Assembly: GCA_015654575.1 (NCBI GenBank)
Contig: JAATGR010000084.1
Span: 1 to 44,924, forward strand
Direction of reading: 5' to 3'
DNA length: 44,924 nucleotides
Source of the DNA: Actinomycetales bacterium
GTDB taxonomy: Bacteria; Actinomycetota; Actinomycetes; Actinomycetales; Microbacteriaceae
A program made the translations under genes and the position numbers. Positions within the stretch are counted from its first letter, which is position 1; each line of letters opens with the position of its first letter. The notes under the pieces were generated by a model that was not told the DNA's origin, searched no databases, and saw only the letters and a program-made list of their open reading frames with translations. This document shows positions 10,266 through 19,355 of the stretch, in pieces.

Positions 10266-11435
10266 ATGGACATCGCGATGCGACTCCGCTGCGCGTCGGT
10301 GGCGCTGATCGCGGCCATGTGCGTGCTCGTCGTCGGCTGCGTCGCCGAGCCGGCTGCCCCGACGTCCGGCGCGGATCCCGCCACGTCGAGCACGACGCCC
10401 GCTCCGACTCCCGACGATCCCCTGGCGGGGATGGACCTGGCGGCGCGCGTGGCGCAGCTCTTCATGGTCGGTACCTCCGTCGACGGCGCGGACGCGGTGA
10501 CGCTGGCGGCCGTCGCCGATCCCGGCATCGGCGGTGTCTTCCTGCACGGACGTTCGGAGGCGGGGACGGCGTCGATCGCCGCGCTCGTCTCACAGTTCCA
10601 GGGGGAGCGTCCTGCGGACGCGCCGGCGCTGTGGATCGCGACCGACCAGGAGGGCGGCGACGTGCAGGTGCTCTCAGGGCCCGGATTCGATGACATGCCG
10701 ACGGCGCTCACCCAGGCTCGGGACGGATGCGATCCGATCGGGGCCGAGGCGCTGCGCTGGGGCGAGCAGTTGGCACAGGCGGGGGTCACCATGAACCTGG
10801 CGCCCGTGGCAGACATCGTCACGAGCCCATCCACCGCCTGGGACAACGCTCCGATCGGCCGGTTGAACCGCAACTACGGCTACGACGAGCCCACGGTCGT
10901 CGCCTGCGCCGGCGCCTTCGCGCAGGGGATGCGGGCAGCCGCGGTCCTGCCGACGTTCAAACACTTCCCGGGGCTGGGCCGCACCACGGACAACACCGAC
11001 AACAGCGCAGATGTCGTGGACACGCAGGTGACGGCCGACTCACCCGATGTGGACGTGTACCGGGACCTGCTCGCCCAGGGCCCCGCGGTCGTCATGATGT
11101 CGACGGCGGTCTACCAGCAGATCGATGCCTCGGCGCCGGCGGCCTTCTCCTCCGCGGTCGTGACCGGCCTGTTGCGCGACCGGCTCGGTTTCGATGGCGT
11201 CGTCATGACCGACGACCTCTCGGCGACCGCGCAGGTGGAGCAGTGGTCGCCGGGGGACCGCGCCGTCCTCGCCGTCGAGGCCGGCGTCGATGTGCTGCTC
11301 GTCTCCGCCGACTCCTCCGTGTTCGGTGAGATGTACGCCGCCGTGCTGCAGAAGGCGGAGTCCGACCCTGCATTTTCCGCACAGGTGGATGCGGCGGTCA
11401 GCCGCATCCTCGCCCTCAAAGAGCGCCTCGGCTGA
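10266..11435 (+). CDS. Glycoside hydrolase family 3 N-terminal domain lipoprotein (beta-N-acetylhexosaminidase/NagZ-like)
   Basis: Lipoprotein signal (VLVVGC), TDQEGGDV, KHFPGLG and GFDGVVMTDDL motifs. Confidence 0.9.
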   Translation: MDIAMRLRCASVALIAAMCVLVVGCVAEPAAPTSGADPATSSTTPAPTPDDPLAGMDLAARVAQLFMVGTSVDGADAVTLAAVADPGIGGVFLHGRSEAGTASIAALVSQFQGERPADAPALWIATDQEGGDVQVLSGPGFDDMPTALTQARDGCDPIGAEALRWGEQLAQAGVTMNLAPVADIVTSPSTAWDNAPIGRLNRNYGYDEPTVVACAGAFAQGMRAAAVLPTFKHFPGLGRTTDNTDNSADVVDTQVTADSPDVDVYRDLLAQGPAVVMMSTAVYQQIDASAPAAFSSAVVTGLLRDRLGFDGVVMTDDLSATAQVEQWSPGDRAVLAVEAGVDVLLVSADSSVFGEMYAAVLQKAESDPAFSAQVDAAVSRILALKERLG

Positions 11436-12651: not shown

Positions 12652-12807
12652 TCCCCGCTGCCGCTGCTCGCATGGCGCTCTTCTGCTTCTGCGTCACCGT
12701 TCTGTGCCGCGTAGGAAGGTGGCAGCAGCGCGAGCGGAGTCAGCCCGGGGTGTGCGGGGGCCGGGTGCGTGTCGGTGGATGTCCGAGCGCGTCACTACCC
12801 TGGATGG

Positions 12808-14841
12808 GTGAGCGCACCGTATCCCGACACGTGGCCCGAGCCCGGTGTCGGGTCCGGCGACGCATCGTCTGACGGAGCGCCCGACGAGTGGGCACCGCCC
12901 GCGGACTGGGTGCCGCCTGACGACTGGGCCCCAGAGGAAGACGGCTTCCTCCCGCCCCCTGAAGGGCAGGCGCCTCCCGGGCCTGCCGCCGGTTTCGCGG
13001 CAGGCCCGGCCACGCCCGTGCGCCGTGACCTGACCGGATCCGCCCCGCTCGCCGTGCTCGCCGAGGTCTACGGCTACGACGCGTTCCGCGGCGATCAGGC
13101 CGCGATCGTCGACCACGTCGTCGCCGGCGGCGACGCGATCGTGCTCATGCCCACCGGCGGCGGGAAGAGCGTGACCTATCAGGTTCCGGCGCTGGTGCGA
13201 GAGGGCACGGGGCTGGTCGTCAGTCCGCTGATCGCGCTCATGCACGATCAGGTCGACGCGCTCGTGGCCAACGGCGTCCAGGCCGGCTACCTCAACTCGA
13301 CGCAGACCGCGCCCGAACGACGGCGGACGGAGCAGCTGTTCCTCGACGGCGAGCTCGACCTTCTCTACGTCGCCCCCGAACGTCTCAACCTGCCCTCCAC
13401 CAAGGAGCTGCTGCGACGCGGCACGCTCAGCGTCATCGCCATCGACGAGGCGCACTGCGTGTCGCAGTGGGGGCACGACTTCCGCCCCGACTACCTGCAG
13501 CTCGGCGAGCTACAGGCCGATTTCCCGGGAGTGCCGCGCATGGCACTCACCGCCACCGCCACCCGCGAGACCCACCAGGAGATCGCGGAGCGGCTGCGCC
13601 TGCCTGAGGCGCGGCACTTCGTCGCGAGCTTCGACCGGCCCAACATCCAGTACCGCATCGAGCCCAAGGTCGACCCGCGCCGCCAGCTGGTGGCGTTCAT
13701 CCGCAGCCAGCCGGAGGGTGTGGCGGGCATCGTCTACGCGCTCAGCCGCAAGAGCGTGGAGCAGACGGCGGAGCACCTGCGCACCCAGGGTATCGCCGCG
13801 CTGCCGTACCACGCCGGGCTTCCGGCAGAGGTACGAGCGGCGAACCAGTCGCGGTTCCTCCGCGAGGACGGCGTCGTGATGGTCGCCACCGTGGCGTTCG
13901 GCATGGGGATCGACAAGCCCGACGTGCGCTTCGTCGCCCACATCGATCTGCCGAAGTCGGTCGAGGGCTACTACCAGGAGACCGGGCGTGCCGGCCGTGA
14001 CGGTGAACCCTCGGTCGCGTGGATGGCATACGGCCTCGGCGACGTCGTGCAGCAGCGGCGCTTCATCGACCAGTCCGACGGTGACCTGGCCCACAAGCGG
14101 CGGATGCAGCAGCACCTCGATGCGATGTTGGCCCTGTGCGAGACGGTGGGCTGCCGCCGTCAGAACCTGCTCGGCTACTTCGGACAGGAGTCCGCCCCCT
14201 GCGGCAACTGCGACACCTGTCTGATCCCGCCCGAGACCTTCGACGGGCTCGTGCCCGCGCAGAAGCTGCTGTCCACGGTCGTGCGGCTGCAGCGGGAGCG
14301 TGGCCAGGCCTTCGGCGCCGGACACCTGATCGACATCCTCCGCGGCGCCGACACCGAGCGCATCCGCCGGATGGGACACGAGCAGTTGGCGACGTACGGG
14401 ATCGGGAAGGATCTCACAGACGCCGACTGGCGTTCGGTCGTGCGTCAGCTGCTGGCCCGCGGCATCCTCGTCGCCCAGGGCGAGTACGGCACGTTGGCCC
14501 TCAGCGATCAGGCCGCCGGCGTGCTGAAGGGCGAGACCCCGGTGCCGCTGCGACGCGACGTGATGGGACGTTCCAGCACACCGCGGATGCGGAAGCCCCC
14601 GGCCTCGGCCGACGTCGCCGAGGCCGACCGCGACCTCTTCGAGGCGTTGCGGTCCTGGCGGGCCGAGACCGCGCGCGAGCAGGGCGTCCCGGCCTACATC
14701 GTCTTCGGCGACGCCACGCTGCGCGCGCTGGCCGAGCATCGACCGCAGCAGGCCTCCGAGCTTGAGGGGATCACCGGCATCGGGGCGAAGAAGCGCGAGG
14801 CGTACGGCGACGGCGTGCTCACGGTCATCGCCACGCACTGA
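12808..14841 (+). CDS. recQ: ATP-dependent DNA helicase RecQ
   Basis: MPTGGGKSVTYQVPAL, DEAHCVSQWGHDFRPDYL, QETGRAGRDG, zinc-binding Cys cluster, HRDC-like C-terminus. GTG start at 12808. Confidence 0.93.
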   Translation: MSAPYPDTWPEPGVGSGDASSDGAPDEWAPPADWVPPDDWAPEEDGFLPPPEGQAPPGPAAGFAAGPATPVRRDLTGSAPLAVLAEVYGYDAFRGDQAAIVDHVVAGGDAIVLMPTGGGKSVTYQVPALVREGTGLVVSPLIALMHDQVDALVANGVQAGYLNSTQTAPERRRTEQLFLDGELDLLYVAPERLNLPSTKELLRRGTLSVIAIDEAHCVSQWGHDFRPDYLQLGELQADFPGVPRMALTATATRETHQEIAERLRLPEARHFVASFDRPNIQYRIEPKVDPRRQLVAFIRSQPEGVAGIVYALSRKSVEQTAEHLRTQGIAALPYHAGLPAEVRAANQSRFLREDGVVMVATVAFGMGIDKPDVRFVAHIDLPKSVEGYYQETGRAGRDGEPSVAWMAYGLGDVVQQRRFIDQSDGDLAHKRRMQQHLDAMLALCETVGCRRQNLLGYFGQESAPCGNCDTCLIPPETFDGLVPAQKLLSTVVRLQRERGQAFGAGHLIDILRGADTERIRRMGHEQLATYGIGKDLTDADWRSVVRQLLARGILVAQGEYGTLALSDQAAGVLKGETPVPLRRDVMGRSSTPRMRKPPASADVAEADRDLFEALRSWRAETAREQGVPAYIVFGDATLRALAEHRPQQASELEGITGIGAKKREAYGDGVLTVIATH

Positions 14842-14845
14842 CCGG

Positions 14846-16108
14846 TCATCGCCGGGGGAGCACGTCGTCCAGGTGGGCGCTCAGGTGCGCGGCGACGTCG
14901 ATGTGTTCGCGGTCGTAGAGCCACTGGATCTGCAGCCCGTCCCAGAGGGCGACCAGCCAGACCGCCTCGTGTGCGGGGTCACGGTGGGCGGGCAGGTCGC
15001 CGTCGCGTGCAGCGGCGGCGAACAGTGCGCCGAACACGTCCAGCGCTGTGTCGAAGCGCTCGCGGAAGTAATCGTGCGCCGGGTGCCGCGTCGCCGTCGC
15101 CTCGCAGCACAGGACGCTGTAGACCTCGACCAGGCCGGGCGCGCTCTCCGTGTTCGTTGTGGCGCCCCGCGGCAGGTCGCGCAGCAGCTCGGCAGCGGAT
15201 GTCGCCTGCGGCTGCCTCCGCTGAGCGATCTCGGAGTCTCGTGCGGCGAGGACCGCGCGCAGCAGGTCTTCCTTCGTCGGGTAGTGGTGGAACAGCGTCG
15301 ACTTCGAGACGCCGACCCGTTCCGCGATGGTGCGCATGCTGGTATCGGCATAGCCCGTCGCCGCGAACAGCGTCATCGCGTCCGCGACGATCTGATCGCG
15401 GCGAGCGCGACCTGCGGTGTTTCCGGCCGGCTCGGTCGCGTCGGACGCCAAGGTGCGCAGCGGCGGGATCACCCCCGATGCATCGTCGGATCCGTGGGTG
15501 ATCGCCCAGGCGTACGGGCGGGTGACGGCCTGTTGGTGCGCGTCGAGCTCGCGTACGACCTCGACGCGGTCCGGAAGGTACAGCTGCAGCACCTGTAGTC
15601 CGTCCCAGCCGGCGACCAGGCGGATGCTCTCCGCCGAGACATCCCGTCCCGTCCCGAGCCGGAAGTGCGGCCGTGTCGACCGGGCGGCCTGATCCGCGTA
15701 GGAGCGCATCTGCGCGTATCGATCCGCCATGTGCCCGTGTGCCGGATGGGTCGTGGTCGTCGCCTCTCCGGCAAGGGCGCTGAACAGGGCGAGGTATCCG
15801 GGATGCTCGGCATTGCGGCGGGCGATGTCCATCACAGTGACGGGGTTGGCGGCGTCCTCCTGCGCCTGGATCCAGAGCTGATTACCGGTCTCGAATCGCT
15901 CCACCAGCTCCCGGAGGACGTCGTCCTTCCCGGCGAAATGGCGGAGGAGCCCCGGATGGCTCATTCCGGCGGCGGTGGCGATGTCTCGCAGCGAGGTCGC
16001 CCGGTAGCCCGGATCGATGAACAGGCCGGTGGCGGCGTCGAGAATCTGCTGCCGACGGCGTTCGCCGCGTGCCGTACGTGCCGGCGCCACCCGAGTCGTT
16101 GTGGTCAT
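14846..16108 (-). CDS. Tandem (double) TetR/AcrR-family regulator, two complete repressor modules in one polypeptide
   Basis: HTH 1: RRQQILDAATGLFIDPGYRATSLRDIATAAGMSHPGLLRHFAGKDDVL. HTH 2: RRDQIVADAMTLFAATGYADTSMRTIAERVGVSKSTLFHHYPTKEDLL. Each is followed by a similar ligand-binding-like domain ending WDGLQ(V/I)..LY. Confidence 0.93.
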   Translation of the reverse strand: MTTTTRVAPARTARGERRRQQILDAATGLFIDPGYRATSLRDIATAAGMSHPGLLRHFAGKDDVLRELVERFETGNQLWIQAQEDAANPVTVMDIARRNAEHPGYLALFSALAGEATTTTHPAHGHMADRYAQMRSYADQAARSTRPHFRLGTGRDVSAESIRLVAGWDGLQVLQLYLPDRVEVVRELDAHQQAVTRPYAWAITHGSDDASGVIPPLRTLASDATEPAGNTAGRARRDQIVADAMTLFAATGYADTSMRTIAERVGVSKSTLFHHYPTKEDLLRAVLAARDSEIAQRRQPQATSAAELLRDLPRGATTNTESAPGLVEVYSVLCCEATATRHPAHDYFRERFDTALDVFGALFAAAARDGDLPAHRDPAHEAVWLVALWDGLQIQWLYDREHIDVAAHLSAHLDDVLPRR

Positions 16109-16157
16109 CAGATCCTCTTCGTCGAGCGTATCGCGGCGCTGCGACGGTTCAGAACCT

Positions 16158-16178
16158 ACCACTCGGTCGAGAAATGGT
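16158..16178. promoter_or_regulatory. Candidate TetR operator, site 1
   Basis: ACCACTCGGTCGAGAAATGGT; palindromic core CTCGGTCGAG (16162-16171). Confidence 0.75.
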
Positions 16179-16179
16179 T

Positions 16180-16200
16180 ACCAATCGGTCGATAATTGGT
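16180..16200. promoter_or_regulatory. Candidate TetR operator, site 2
   Basis: ACCAATCGGTCGATAATTGGT, 18/21 identical to site 1; core ATCGGTCGAT (16184-16193). Confidence 0.75.
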
Positions 16201-16266
16201 GTAGCGTGCTGCCGACGCCGCGTCATCGTCGATGCGCGGGGGGCGTCGGACGTGAAAGGACACGAC

Positions 16267-17568
16267 ATGACAGAGCTGTCACCGAGTGCGCGCGAGGCGG
16301 TCATCGGCACTCGAGGATTCAAGGCGCCGGGGACGACCCCGTCGCGCACACCCCGCTTCTACACGCCGGGCCTGGCCGCCGTGAACTTCTGCGTCTACAT
16401 TGCCCTGCTCACCCCGGTGATGGTCTCGATGGCGTTCAAGGTCGAGCACATCTCCGCCGAAGGCGAGTCGACTGGAAACCTCGGTCTCGTGCTGGGTATC
16501 GGCGCCCTGTTCGCCCTGGTCGCCAACCCGCTCGCCGGGCGGCTCTCCGACCGCACCACCTCCCGCTTCGGCATGCGTCGGCCATGGATCCTCGGCGGTG
16601 CGATCGTGGGCCTCGGCGCTTTCGTGCTCATCGGCGCAGCGACCTCCATCTGGGTGGTGCTGATCGGGTGGTGCCTCGCGCAGACCTCGATGAACGCGCT
16701 GCTGGCCGCCGCCAACGCGACCCTGCCCGATCAGGTCCCCACCGCCCACCGGGGGAAGGTATCGGGAATCATCGGTATCACGACACCGATCGGCATCCTC
16801 GCGGGCAGCTTCCTCATGAACTTCATCTCCGACGACTTCCTGCGCTTCGTCGTTCCGGCGGTCATCTCCCTGGCGCTCGCCGTGGTGTTCGTCCTCACCC
16901 TAAAGGATCGACGTCTCGCTGAGAAGCCGGCGCAGCGCTTCACGGCCGGTCAGTTCTTCGGCTCATTCGTGTTCAACCCGGTCAAGCACCCCGACTTCGG
17001 CTGGACCTGGCTCACAAAGTTCTTCGTGATGTTCGGCTATGCCGGGATCGCCACCTACCTGCCCTACTACCTGGTCACGAACTTCGGCCTCGACGAGCAG
17101 GGAGCGATCAGCACGATCCTCATCGCGAACCTCGCCTCGATAGCGGGGATGATGATCTCCAGCCCGATCGGCGGCATCCTCTCCGACAAGATCGGAAAGC
17201 GCCGTCCGTTCGTCGCCGTCGCCGGCGTGATCATGGTCGTCGGTCTCGTTCTGCTGGCCGTCGCGCCCAGCATCCCCGTGCTCATCGTCGCGCAGGCGAT
17301 CATCGGCCTCGGCGCCGGATCGTTCCTCTCCGTCGACCTGGCACTGGCCACGCAGGTGCTGCCCAACCCCGACGACGTCGCCAAGGACCTTGGTGTCCTC
17401 AACATCGCCAATGCACTTCCGCAATCGATCGCGCCGGCCGTCGCCCCCGCGATCATCGCGGTCGGCTCGGCGACCGCCCTGGGCGGCTACACCACGTGGT
17501 ATCTGTTCGGAGCGCTCGTCGCGCTGCTCGGCGCAGTGTTCGTCTATCGCATCAAGGGAGTGAAATGA
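16267..17568 (+). CDS. MFS transporter (probable glycoside/sugar transporter)
   Basis: 12-TM-like hydrophobic pattern, GRLSDRTTSRFGMRRPWI and GGILSDKIGKRRPF loops. Confidence 0.88.
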   Translation: MTELSPSAREAVIGTRGFKAPGTTPSRTPRFYTPGLAAVNFCVYIALLTPVMVSMAFKVEHISAEGESTGNLGLVLGIGALFALVANPLAGRLSDRTTSRFGMRRPWILGGAIVGLGAFVLIGAATSIWVVLIGWCLAQTSMNALLAAANATLPDQVPTAHRGKVSGIIGITTPIGILAGSFLMNFISDDFLRFVVPAVISLALAVVFVLTLKDRRLAEKPAQRFTAGQFFGSFVFNPVKHPDFGWTWLTKFFVMFGYAGIATYLPYYLVTNFGLDEQGAISTILIANLASIAGMMISSPIGGILSDKIGKRRPFVAVAGVIMVVGLVLLAVAPSIPVLIVAQAIIGLGAGSFLSVDLALATQVLPNPDDVAKDLGVLNIANALPQSIAPAVAPAIIAVGSATALGGYTTWYLFGALVALLGAVFVYRIKGVK

Positions 17569-19355
17569 CCATGTCGGACGCCGTGACCACCGCTCGACTC
17601 TGGCTCGACGTGAGCCTGCCCGTCGAGGAGCGCGTCGAGCTGCTCTTGGCGGAGATGACGGTCGAGGAGAAGGTGGGGCTCTTCTTCCACACGATGATCA
17701 TGATGGGACCCGACGGCGAGCTGTCGGAGGGCGTGTCCTCCTTCGGCGTGTCCTCGACGGAGGAGTACGTGCGCGGCCGTCACCTGAGTCATTTCAACCT
17801 GCTCGGCGTCGCGCCCAGCGCAGAAGCAATCGCCCGGTGGCACAACCGGCTGCAAGAGCTGGCCGCGACCACGCGGCTCGGCATCCCGGTGACGATCTCC
17901 ACCGACCCGCGCCATTCGTTCAGTGAGAACCCGGGCGCGGCGATGATGGCGGGGCCGTTCTCGCAGTGGCCGGAACCGCTGGGGCTGGCGGCGACGCGTG
18001 ATGCTGAGCTGGTGCGTGCCTTCGGCGACATCGCCCGGCGCGAGTATACGGCCGTCGGCATCCGCGTGGCCCTGCACCCGCAGGTCGACCTTGCGACCGA
18101 GCCGCGGTGGGCGCGGGCGCTGCAGACCTTCGGAGAGGACGCCGACCTCACGAGCGAGCTCGGCACGGCCTACGTGCGCGGCTTCCAGGGCGAGCGGCTC
18201 GGACCGGACTCGGTCGCCACGATGGTCAAGCACTTCCCCGGCGGCGGCCCCCAGAAGGACGGCGAGGATCCGCACTTCCCCTACGGCCGTGAGCAGGTGT
18301 ACCCCGGCGGCGACTTCGAACTGCACCTGAAGCCCTTCGCCGCGGTCTTCGCAGCGGGTGCGAGCCAGGTCATGCCGTACTACGGGATGCCGGTGGGCAC
18401 CGCCTACGACGAGGTCGGGTTCGGCTTCAACAAGTCGGTGCTCACCGGGCTGCTGCGCGAGCGGCTCGGCTTCGACGGCATCGTCTGCACCGACTGGGGA
18501 CTGGTGACGGACGCCGACATCTTCGGGCACACCTTCCCCGCCCGCGCCTGGGGCGTGGAGGGGCTGTCGCGGCCTGAGCGGGTCAAGAAGATCCTCGACG
18601 CGGGCGCCGACCAGCTCGGCGGTGAATCCTGCACCGACGTGCTGCTCGAGCTCGTGCAGACGGGTGCTGTCTCCGAGGAGCGCCTCGACGTCTCGGCGCG
18701 GCGGCTGCTGCGGGAGAAGTTCGTGCTGGGGCTGTTCGAGAACCCCTTCGTGGACGTCGAAGCGGCGGCGCGGATCGTCGGCGCGCCGGAGTTCCGAGCC
18801 GCTGGGTTCGCCGCGCAACAGGCCTCGATCGCGGTGCTCACGAACGGGAATGGCCCGGCCGGCGCACCGGTCCTGCCCTTCGCCCGGGGCGCGAAGCTGT
18901 ACGTCGAGGGCATCGATGCCGCGGTCGCGGGCGCGTACGGCGAGGTCGTGTCGACGCCCGCCGAGGCGGATCTCGCCATCCTGCGCATCGCGGCGCCCTA
19001 CGAGGAGCGCGGCACCGCATTCGAGAACTTCTTCCACGCGGGCTCGCTGGACTTCGCGTCGGACACCGTCGCGCATGTCGTCGAGGTCTCGGCATCCGTG
19101 CCGACCGTGGTCGATGTGTTCCTGGACCGGCCCGCGATCCTTGCTCCGGTCGCCTCCGCGGCTGCCGCTGTGACCGGCAACTGGGGCGCGAGCGCGGAGG
19201 CGCTGCTCGATGTGCTGTCGGGAGCGGTGCCCGCGCGCGGGAAGCTGCCCTTCGACGTCCCGCGGTCGATGGCCGCCGTCGAGGAGTCCCGTCCCGATGT
19301 GCCCTTCGACACCGCGGATCCGCTGTTCCGTTTCGGTCACGGCCTGGAGCTCTGA
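17565..19355 (+). CDS. Glycoside hydrolase family 3 (beta-glucosidase-like)
   Basis: 4-bp ATGA overlap with the MFS gene; VKHFPGGGPQKDGEDPHF and GFDGIVCTDWGLVTD motifs. Confidence 0.9.
   Translation: MTMSDAVTTARLWLDVSLPVEERVELLLAEMTVEEKVGLFFHTMIMMGPDGELSEGVSSFGVSSTEEYVRGRHLSHFNLLGVAPSAEAIARWHNRLQELAATTRLGIPVTISTDPRHSFSENPGAAMMAGPFSQWPEPLGLAATRDAELVRAFGDIARREYTAVGIRVALHPQVDLATEPRWARALQTFGEDADLTSELGTAYVRGFQGERLGPDSVATMVKHFPGGGPQKDGEDPHFPYGREQVYPGGDFELHLKPFAAVFAAGASQVMPYYGMPVGTAYDEVGFGFNKSVLTGLLRERLGFDGIVCTDWGLVTDADIFGHTFPARAWGVEGLSRPERVKKILDAGADQLGGESCTDVLLELVQTGAVSEERLDVSARRLLREKFVLGLFENPFVDVEAAARIVGAPEFRAAGFAAQQASIAVLTNGNGPAGAPVLPFARGAKLYVEGIDAAVAGAYGEVVSTPAEADLAILRIAAPYEERGTAFENFFHAGSLDFASDTVAHVVEVSASVPTVVDVFLDRPAILAPVASAAAAVTGNWGASAEALLDVLSGAVPARGKLPFDVPRSMAAVEESRPDVPFDTADPLFRFGHGLEL

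Follow-up and report, generated by a model that had tools for sequence, protein, structure and literature searches.

The window, a stretch of 44,924 nucleotides, carries a gene whose product joins two complete TetR modules in one polypeptide chain. This double TetR is a real, conserved feature: it represents a new lineage within a protein type that is already known, and a specific operator and promoter model can be attached to it. We think it probable that the single chain acts as a pseudo-dimer that represses a divergent operon encoding an MFS transporter and a GH3 glycoside hydrolase through an asymmetric site, and that it is released by a glycoside-related ligand.

The gene is one uninterrupted open reading frame starting from ATG. 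We favour the ATG at 16108 as the start, because use of the alternative GTG at 16162 would pull part of the predicted operator into the coding frame. The gene, its modules and their recognition helices are as follows.

14846–16108, reverse strand (stop included): double TetR regulator, 420 aa (open reading frame; two PF00440 matches; AlphaFold pTM 0.88)
15464–16108, reverse strand: N-terminal TetR module, residues ∼1–215 (alignment and tree of the halves)
Residues 50–58: recognition helix of the N module, SHPGLLRHF
14849–15463, reverse strand: C-terminal TetR module, residues ∼216–420 (alignment and tree of the halves)
Residues 268–276: recognition helix of the C module, SKSTLFHHY

Pfam detects two TetR_N stretches in the product (PF00440, E = 2.5e-33, 114 bits summed over both) and matches TetR_C_6 (BetI-type) in two stretches as well. 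The N half carries the ligand-domain signature LxGEA...HPAH plus WDGLQ, and the C half EA...HPAHxYF plus WDGLQxQWLY. Because the same signature recurs in both halves, the protein consists of two whole TetR modules, and not of one with a doubled HTH. The earlier note had described the gene in these terms, and the recognition helices that it quoted are correct. The domain matches, together with the helical model and Foldseek matches to TetR proteins, place the product in the TetR family; with two complete TFR modules in a single chain, it has the build of a double TFR of the Mce3R type.

The AlphaFold model of the single chain, computed from a 12-member alignment, is confident (pLDDT 88, pTM 0.88). 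Its top Foldseek match in the PDB is Mce3R (9b7y; E = 7e-8, TM 0.53/0.57), the one full-length match among those listed, the others each spanning one half; the superposition on 9b7y is loose, with an rmsd of 9.9 Å. The monomer model, the full-length match and the Mce3R precedent together favour the proposal that the two modules may form an intramolecular pseudo-dimer. Nevertheless, a monomeric state should not be assumed for the double TetR, because Mce3R itself is a dimer of chains.

Fused homologues, 34–58% identical, occur in Microbacterium, Agromyces, Luteimicrobium, Demequina, Brachybacterium and their relatives, in more than 30 genomes altogether. When 400 genomes of the same family were searched at a threshold of E ≤ 1e-40, 20 had a match, with 12 of 85 genera represented, and nearly all matches were fused frames. 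Named relatives in the public genome collection belong to Microbacterium (58–40% identity), Luteimicrobium, Agromyces, Demequina, Brachybacterium and Leifsonia. An order-wide search yielded further homologues, and in it single-TetR members of the same subfamily were far commoner than fused ones. Two further loci are of a different kind. In Microbacterium fluvii (L053:5746–6186), all that is left of a double tetR is its final ∼60 codons, 67% identical to residues 361–420, with neither an MFS gene nor a GH3 gene of the window type nearby; this is a decayed or truncated double tetR. Bifidobacterium saguini (L055, 5947–7244) has a convergent pair of single tetR genes, both from this subfamily, lying between GH3 genes.

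The source is a draft genome of 273 contigs, so that the double gene might be an assembly error, a missed stop or a recent accident joining two tetR genes. The earlier note had held that such an error, or homologues occurring only as separate adjacent genes, would speak against the fusion. Neither was found: fused frames of this kind recur across several families, in more than 30 genomes that include named strains; the halves were not seen as separate adjacent genes at any homologous locus; and the N and C halves fall into separate clades. The independent fused homologues rule out an assembly or stop artefact, and we give the whole accidental reading next to no chance of being right.

The N and C halves are about one-third identical, and LxGEA..HPAH and WDGLQ are common to both. 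In trees of the halves and their single relatives, a comparison that had been proposed at the outset, the N halves all join a single clade (SH-aLRT 100), whereas a second group is made up of the C halves (in the larger tree, SH-aLRT 95 for 24 of 25, with one long branch outside). The trees place 54 single TetRs closer to the C halves than to the N halves. The separation of the N and C clades fits one old fusion whose modules have never been exchanged since. The modules may have arisen by duplication of one gene, or from two older paralogues, a choice on which the trees say little because the N branch is long and the single TetRs were collected mostly via C-like patterns.

The genes presumed to be regulated are divergent from tetR, the distance from tetR to the MFS gene being 158 bp.

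16267–17568, forward strand: MFS transporter, 433 aa (PF07690/PF13347; conserved neighbour)
17565–19355, forward strand: GH3 glycoside hydrolase, ∼595 aa (PF00933/PF01915; conserved neighbour)

The closest solved structure to this GH3 is the beta-glucosidase 9ul7 (E = 9.9e-193). A GH3 gene lies divergently next to the regulator gene in 27 of 31 family loci and four of six further ones, with an MFS gene between the double tetR and GH3 in about 60%. The operon that had been reported beside the gene is therefore present, and its regulation by the double TetR is supported by the conserved synteny and by a predicted operator inside its promoter. A glycoside-related signal likely acts on the protein, given that the GH3 neighbourhood is conserved and that single relatives also adjoin GH3 genes. 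Two other claims of the earlier note, that the ligand pockets have diverged and that two ligands might be integrated, were not borne out as stated: both halves retain the same E/HPAH/WDGLQ pocket signature, which gives no support to two different ligands. Our literature search for a TetR/GH3 regulon returned nothing specific.

Other genes in the window deserve brief mention. The convergent neighbour recQ (12769–14841) adjoins the double tetR in about 14 of 37 loci, probably reflecting conserved gene order only. A second GH3 gene (10266–11435), secreted-looking, with a lipoprotein-type signal and the N-terminal GH3 domain only, precedes the dehydrogenase gene that lies upstream of recQ, and no predicted operator was detected in its vicinity.

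The upstream regions of 31 family members have in common, in one orientation, the asymmetric site AA-n3-CGACCGATTGGTAAC, which we consider the candidate operator of the double TetR. Two copies are predicted at this locus.

16177–16191, reverse strand: predicted operator copy 1, CGACCGATTGGTAAC, MFS-proximal (pattern search; matrix score 31.6, left-out score 29.7)
16155–16169, reverse strand: predicted operator copy 2, CGACCGAGTGGTAGG (matrix score 16.1)

Copy 2 is displaced by 22 bp to the tetR side of copy 1, and the two are arranged head to tail. In leave-out scoring, the scored locus and its nearest kin were removed from the matrix. The operator matrix scored above 15 on the tetR strand in 27 of 31 loci and above 8 on the opposite strand in none of the 31; the maximum over 1240 dinucleotide shuffles was 13.9. 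Five loci outside the matrix training scored 31.8, 30.2, 24.9, 19.1 and 15.3. Two or three copies in the same orientation are present in 18 loci, and all 19 intervals between them are 22 bp; loci with a single site are common. Within its own genome the exact pattern occurs once, as copy 1, and it occurs once each, at this locus, in two of eight relatives' genomes. One-mismatch matches of CGACCNNNTGGTAAC in the own genome numbered 13 vs. 7 for a control pattern, a level so close that we claim no wider regulon there.

One fused tetR without a divergent GH3 (L080) has a site scoring 27 before another GH3-like gene 5 kb off, the gene being assigned by reading its sequence rather than by a domain scan. 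This high-scoring predicted operator (L080:12531–12554) is opposite in orientation to the GH3-like gene and thus provides a natural test of operator polarity.

Like double-TFR repressors with their nonpalindromic operators, the family has a conserved asymmetric site. Comparative genomics thereby supports the asymmetric operator suggested by the earlier note, with the caveats that asymmetric sites are found with six single-TetR relatives too and that the TTACCA half of the operator overlaps a predicted −35 box.

The overlap concerns the following elements of the MFS–GH3 promoter.

16178–16183, forward strand: TTACCA, right half-site of copy 1 and predicted −35 box
16202–16207, forward strand: TAGCGT, predicted −10 box, 18 bp after TTACCA

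In 29 of 33 loci, TTACCA in the proximal copy is followed 16–19 bp later by a TAnnnT sequence, at 17–18 bp in 27 of them. The promoter-proximal copy probably covers the predicted −35 box, which would provide a plain mechanism of repression.

The variation among family members bears on which module reads which half-site. When the N helix contains HPG, the right half is TGGTAA in 19 of 20 cases, as against one of nine with other helices (Fisher 1.8e-5); the statistic is limited by relatedness to two independent pairs on well-supported branches, both of which are mostly in the expected direction. HPG in the N helix has no link with the left half-site (p = 1). Among the members with other N helices, L036 and L039 have SHASVLRYY and the site GGTTAG. 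Of the single TetRs with a C-like helix, two have a palindromic site of the form CGACC-n4-GGTCG; those with the helix HTTLLHHF have TTCGACCACTTGGTCGA. Taken together, the link between HPG and the right half and the palindromes of the C-like single TetRs suggest, with moderate confidence, that the N module acts on the TTACCA half-site and the C module on the CGACC half-site. The near-perfect palindromes in the tetR upstream regions of two single-TetR relatives, TTCGACCACTTGGTCGA and TTCGACCACGTGGTCGA (L149 and L151), could be used as symmetric comparison sites.

Six single-TetR relatives with the helix SHPGLLHHF have CGACCnnTTGGTAAG-like asymmetric sites. An asymmetric site therefore needs no fused protein, and the idea that such operators are unique to fused proteins is weakened. 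A separate gene for an N-like partner of these single TetRs was considered as well. The N-half profile, run against eight such genomes, retrieved none beside the C-like gene, and its best matches were the C-like gene itself. The asymmetry in these relatives may be explained by overlap with the −35 box.

The same explanation might be extended to the fused proteins, the asymmetry of the operator being a by-product of the −35 overlap, with the two half-sites read alike and the fusion irrelevant to operator recognition. TTACCA is indeed a −35-like hexamer 17–18 bp from TAnnnT in most loci, and the sites of the single-TetR relatives are similarly asymmetric near the GH3 start. However, later operator copies lie off any −35 box, with TAnnnT at the corresponding spacing in only one of 19, yet TTACC is kept in 13 of 19, so that the asymmetry is not wholly due to the promoter. 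Changes in the right half also accompany changes in the N helix, and the L080 site runs opposite to its GH3-like gene. We therefore regard a pure by-product as unlikely. Lower still is the probability that we attach to tethered conventional dimers, in which N would pair with N and C with C across two chains, and two different sites would be read or operators bridged. Tandem operators at a fixed 22 bp would suit such a multivalent protein, and in Mce3R helix 15 mediates the dimerisation of chains, which bind two duplexes; but M1–M2 pairing in Mce3R occurs in one chain, and the monomer model of the present protein is confident. Moreover, each 15-bp unit contains both half-site types, rather than there being separate CGACC and TTACC palindromes, and one-site loci are common.

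In the single-chain reading that we prefer, the N and C modules would pair inside one polypeptide to give a TetR-like pseudo-dimer. This would bind the asymmetric site CGACC-n4-GGTAA, recognized here by its conservation, the CGACC half most likely being contacted by the C module and the TTACCA half by the N module. One or two molecules would sit head to tail, 22 bp apart and on the same DNA face, the promoter-proximal one covering the −35 box of the divergent MFS–GH3 operon and so blocking RNA polymerase. From the gene context, release would be expected from a glycoside-related ligand, perhaps a substrate or product of GH3 that is imported by the MFS transporter. It is possible, though we hold it doubtful, that the protein is an obligate single-chain heterodimer that imposes a polarity on the operator and is arrayed head to tail at 22-bp intervals, and perhaps a two-input glycoside switch. 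The N and C modules would then be specialized on TTACCA and CGACC, respectively, in a fixed orientation, with assembly over the −35 box and two retained ligand pockets.

The double TetR architecture is already known, and this precedent, which the earlier note did not mention, lowers the novelty of the protein. In this clade, helix and half-site changes can be compared across many natural members that have a predicted operator, and one can ask directly by experiment whether fusion enables a TetR to recognise an asymmetric site. The protein is also a candidate single-gene, orientation-sensitive repressor for beta-glucoside-type metabolism in Micrococcales, and could serve as a one-chain synthetic switch.

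In canonical TetR-family homodimers such as KstR, AcrR and TtgR, each chain holds a single module and the operators are mostly palindromic; each half of the 420-aa protein has their fold. Closer in sequence are GH3-linked single TetRs of Actinomycetota (for example at loci L139, L144, L145 and L099), which belong to the same subfamily, are about 40–45% identical to the C half, and are likewise divergent from GH3 with a similar CGACCnnTTGGTAA site. Unlike the fused protein, they have one ∼200-aa module and presumably act as homodimers, and the GH3 beside them is of another subgroup, about 800 aa long and 27–31% identical to the window GH3.

Mce3R of M. tuberculosis (Rv1963c, 406 aa, PDB 9b7y) adopts an Omega fold within one chain by M1–M2 pairing, as determined by cryo-EM, binds a nonpalindromic 25-bp site in EMSA, and dimerises through its chains (PMC11667970). 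Its authors describe it as the first double TetR structure, and double TFRs as an infrequent but recognized subfamily with 204 predicted members in actinomycetes (PMC11667970). By both sequence profile and fold, Mce3R is the best full-length match to the 420-aa protein. Both have two complete TetR modules in a chain of ∼400 aa, a gene that adjoins the regulated operon (presumed to be regulated in our case) and a nonpalindromic operator in two copies. The two proteins differ in that sequence similarity is confined to the two HTHs, both of which, in Mce3R, match the N-half part of the profile, the second at N-half positions 20–77. Since the profile alignment is not collinear, we reject orthology. 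Mce3R regulates lipid/mce3 genes, with 25-bp sites 53 bp apart, whereas here there are MFS and GH3 genes and 15-bp cores at 22-bp spacing; the neighbours of the double tetR are MFS, GH3 and RecQ genes, rather than an mce/yrbE lipid operon. With its divergent GH3, HPAH and WDGLQ motifs and CGACC..GGT site, the double TetR at 14846–16108 has the marks of the GH3-linked TetR subfamily as we define it here, and it is a lineage from within that subfamily, distinct from Mce3R.
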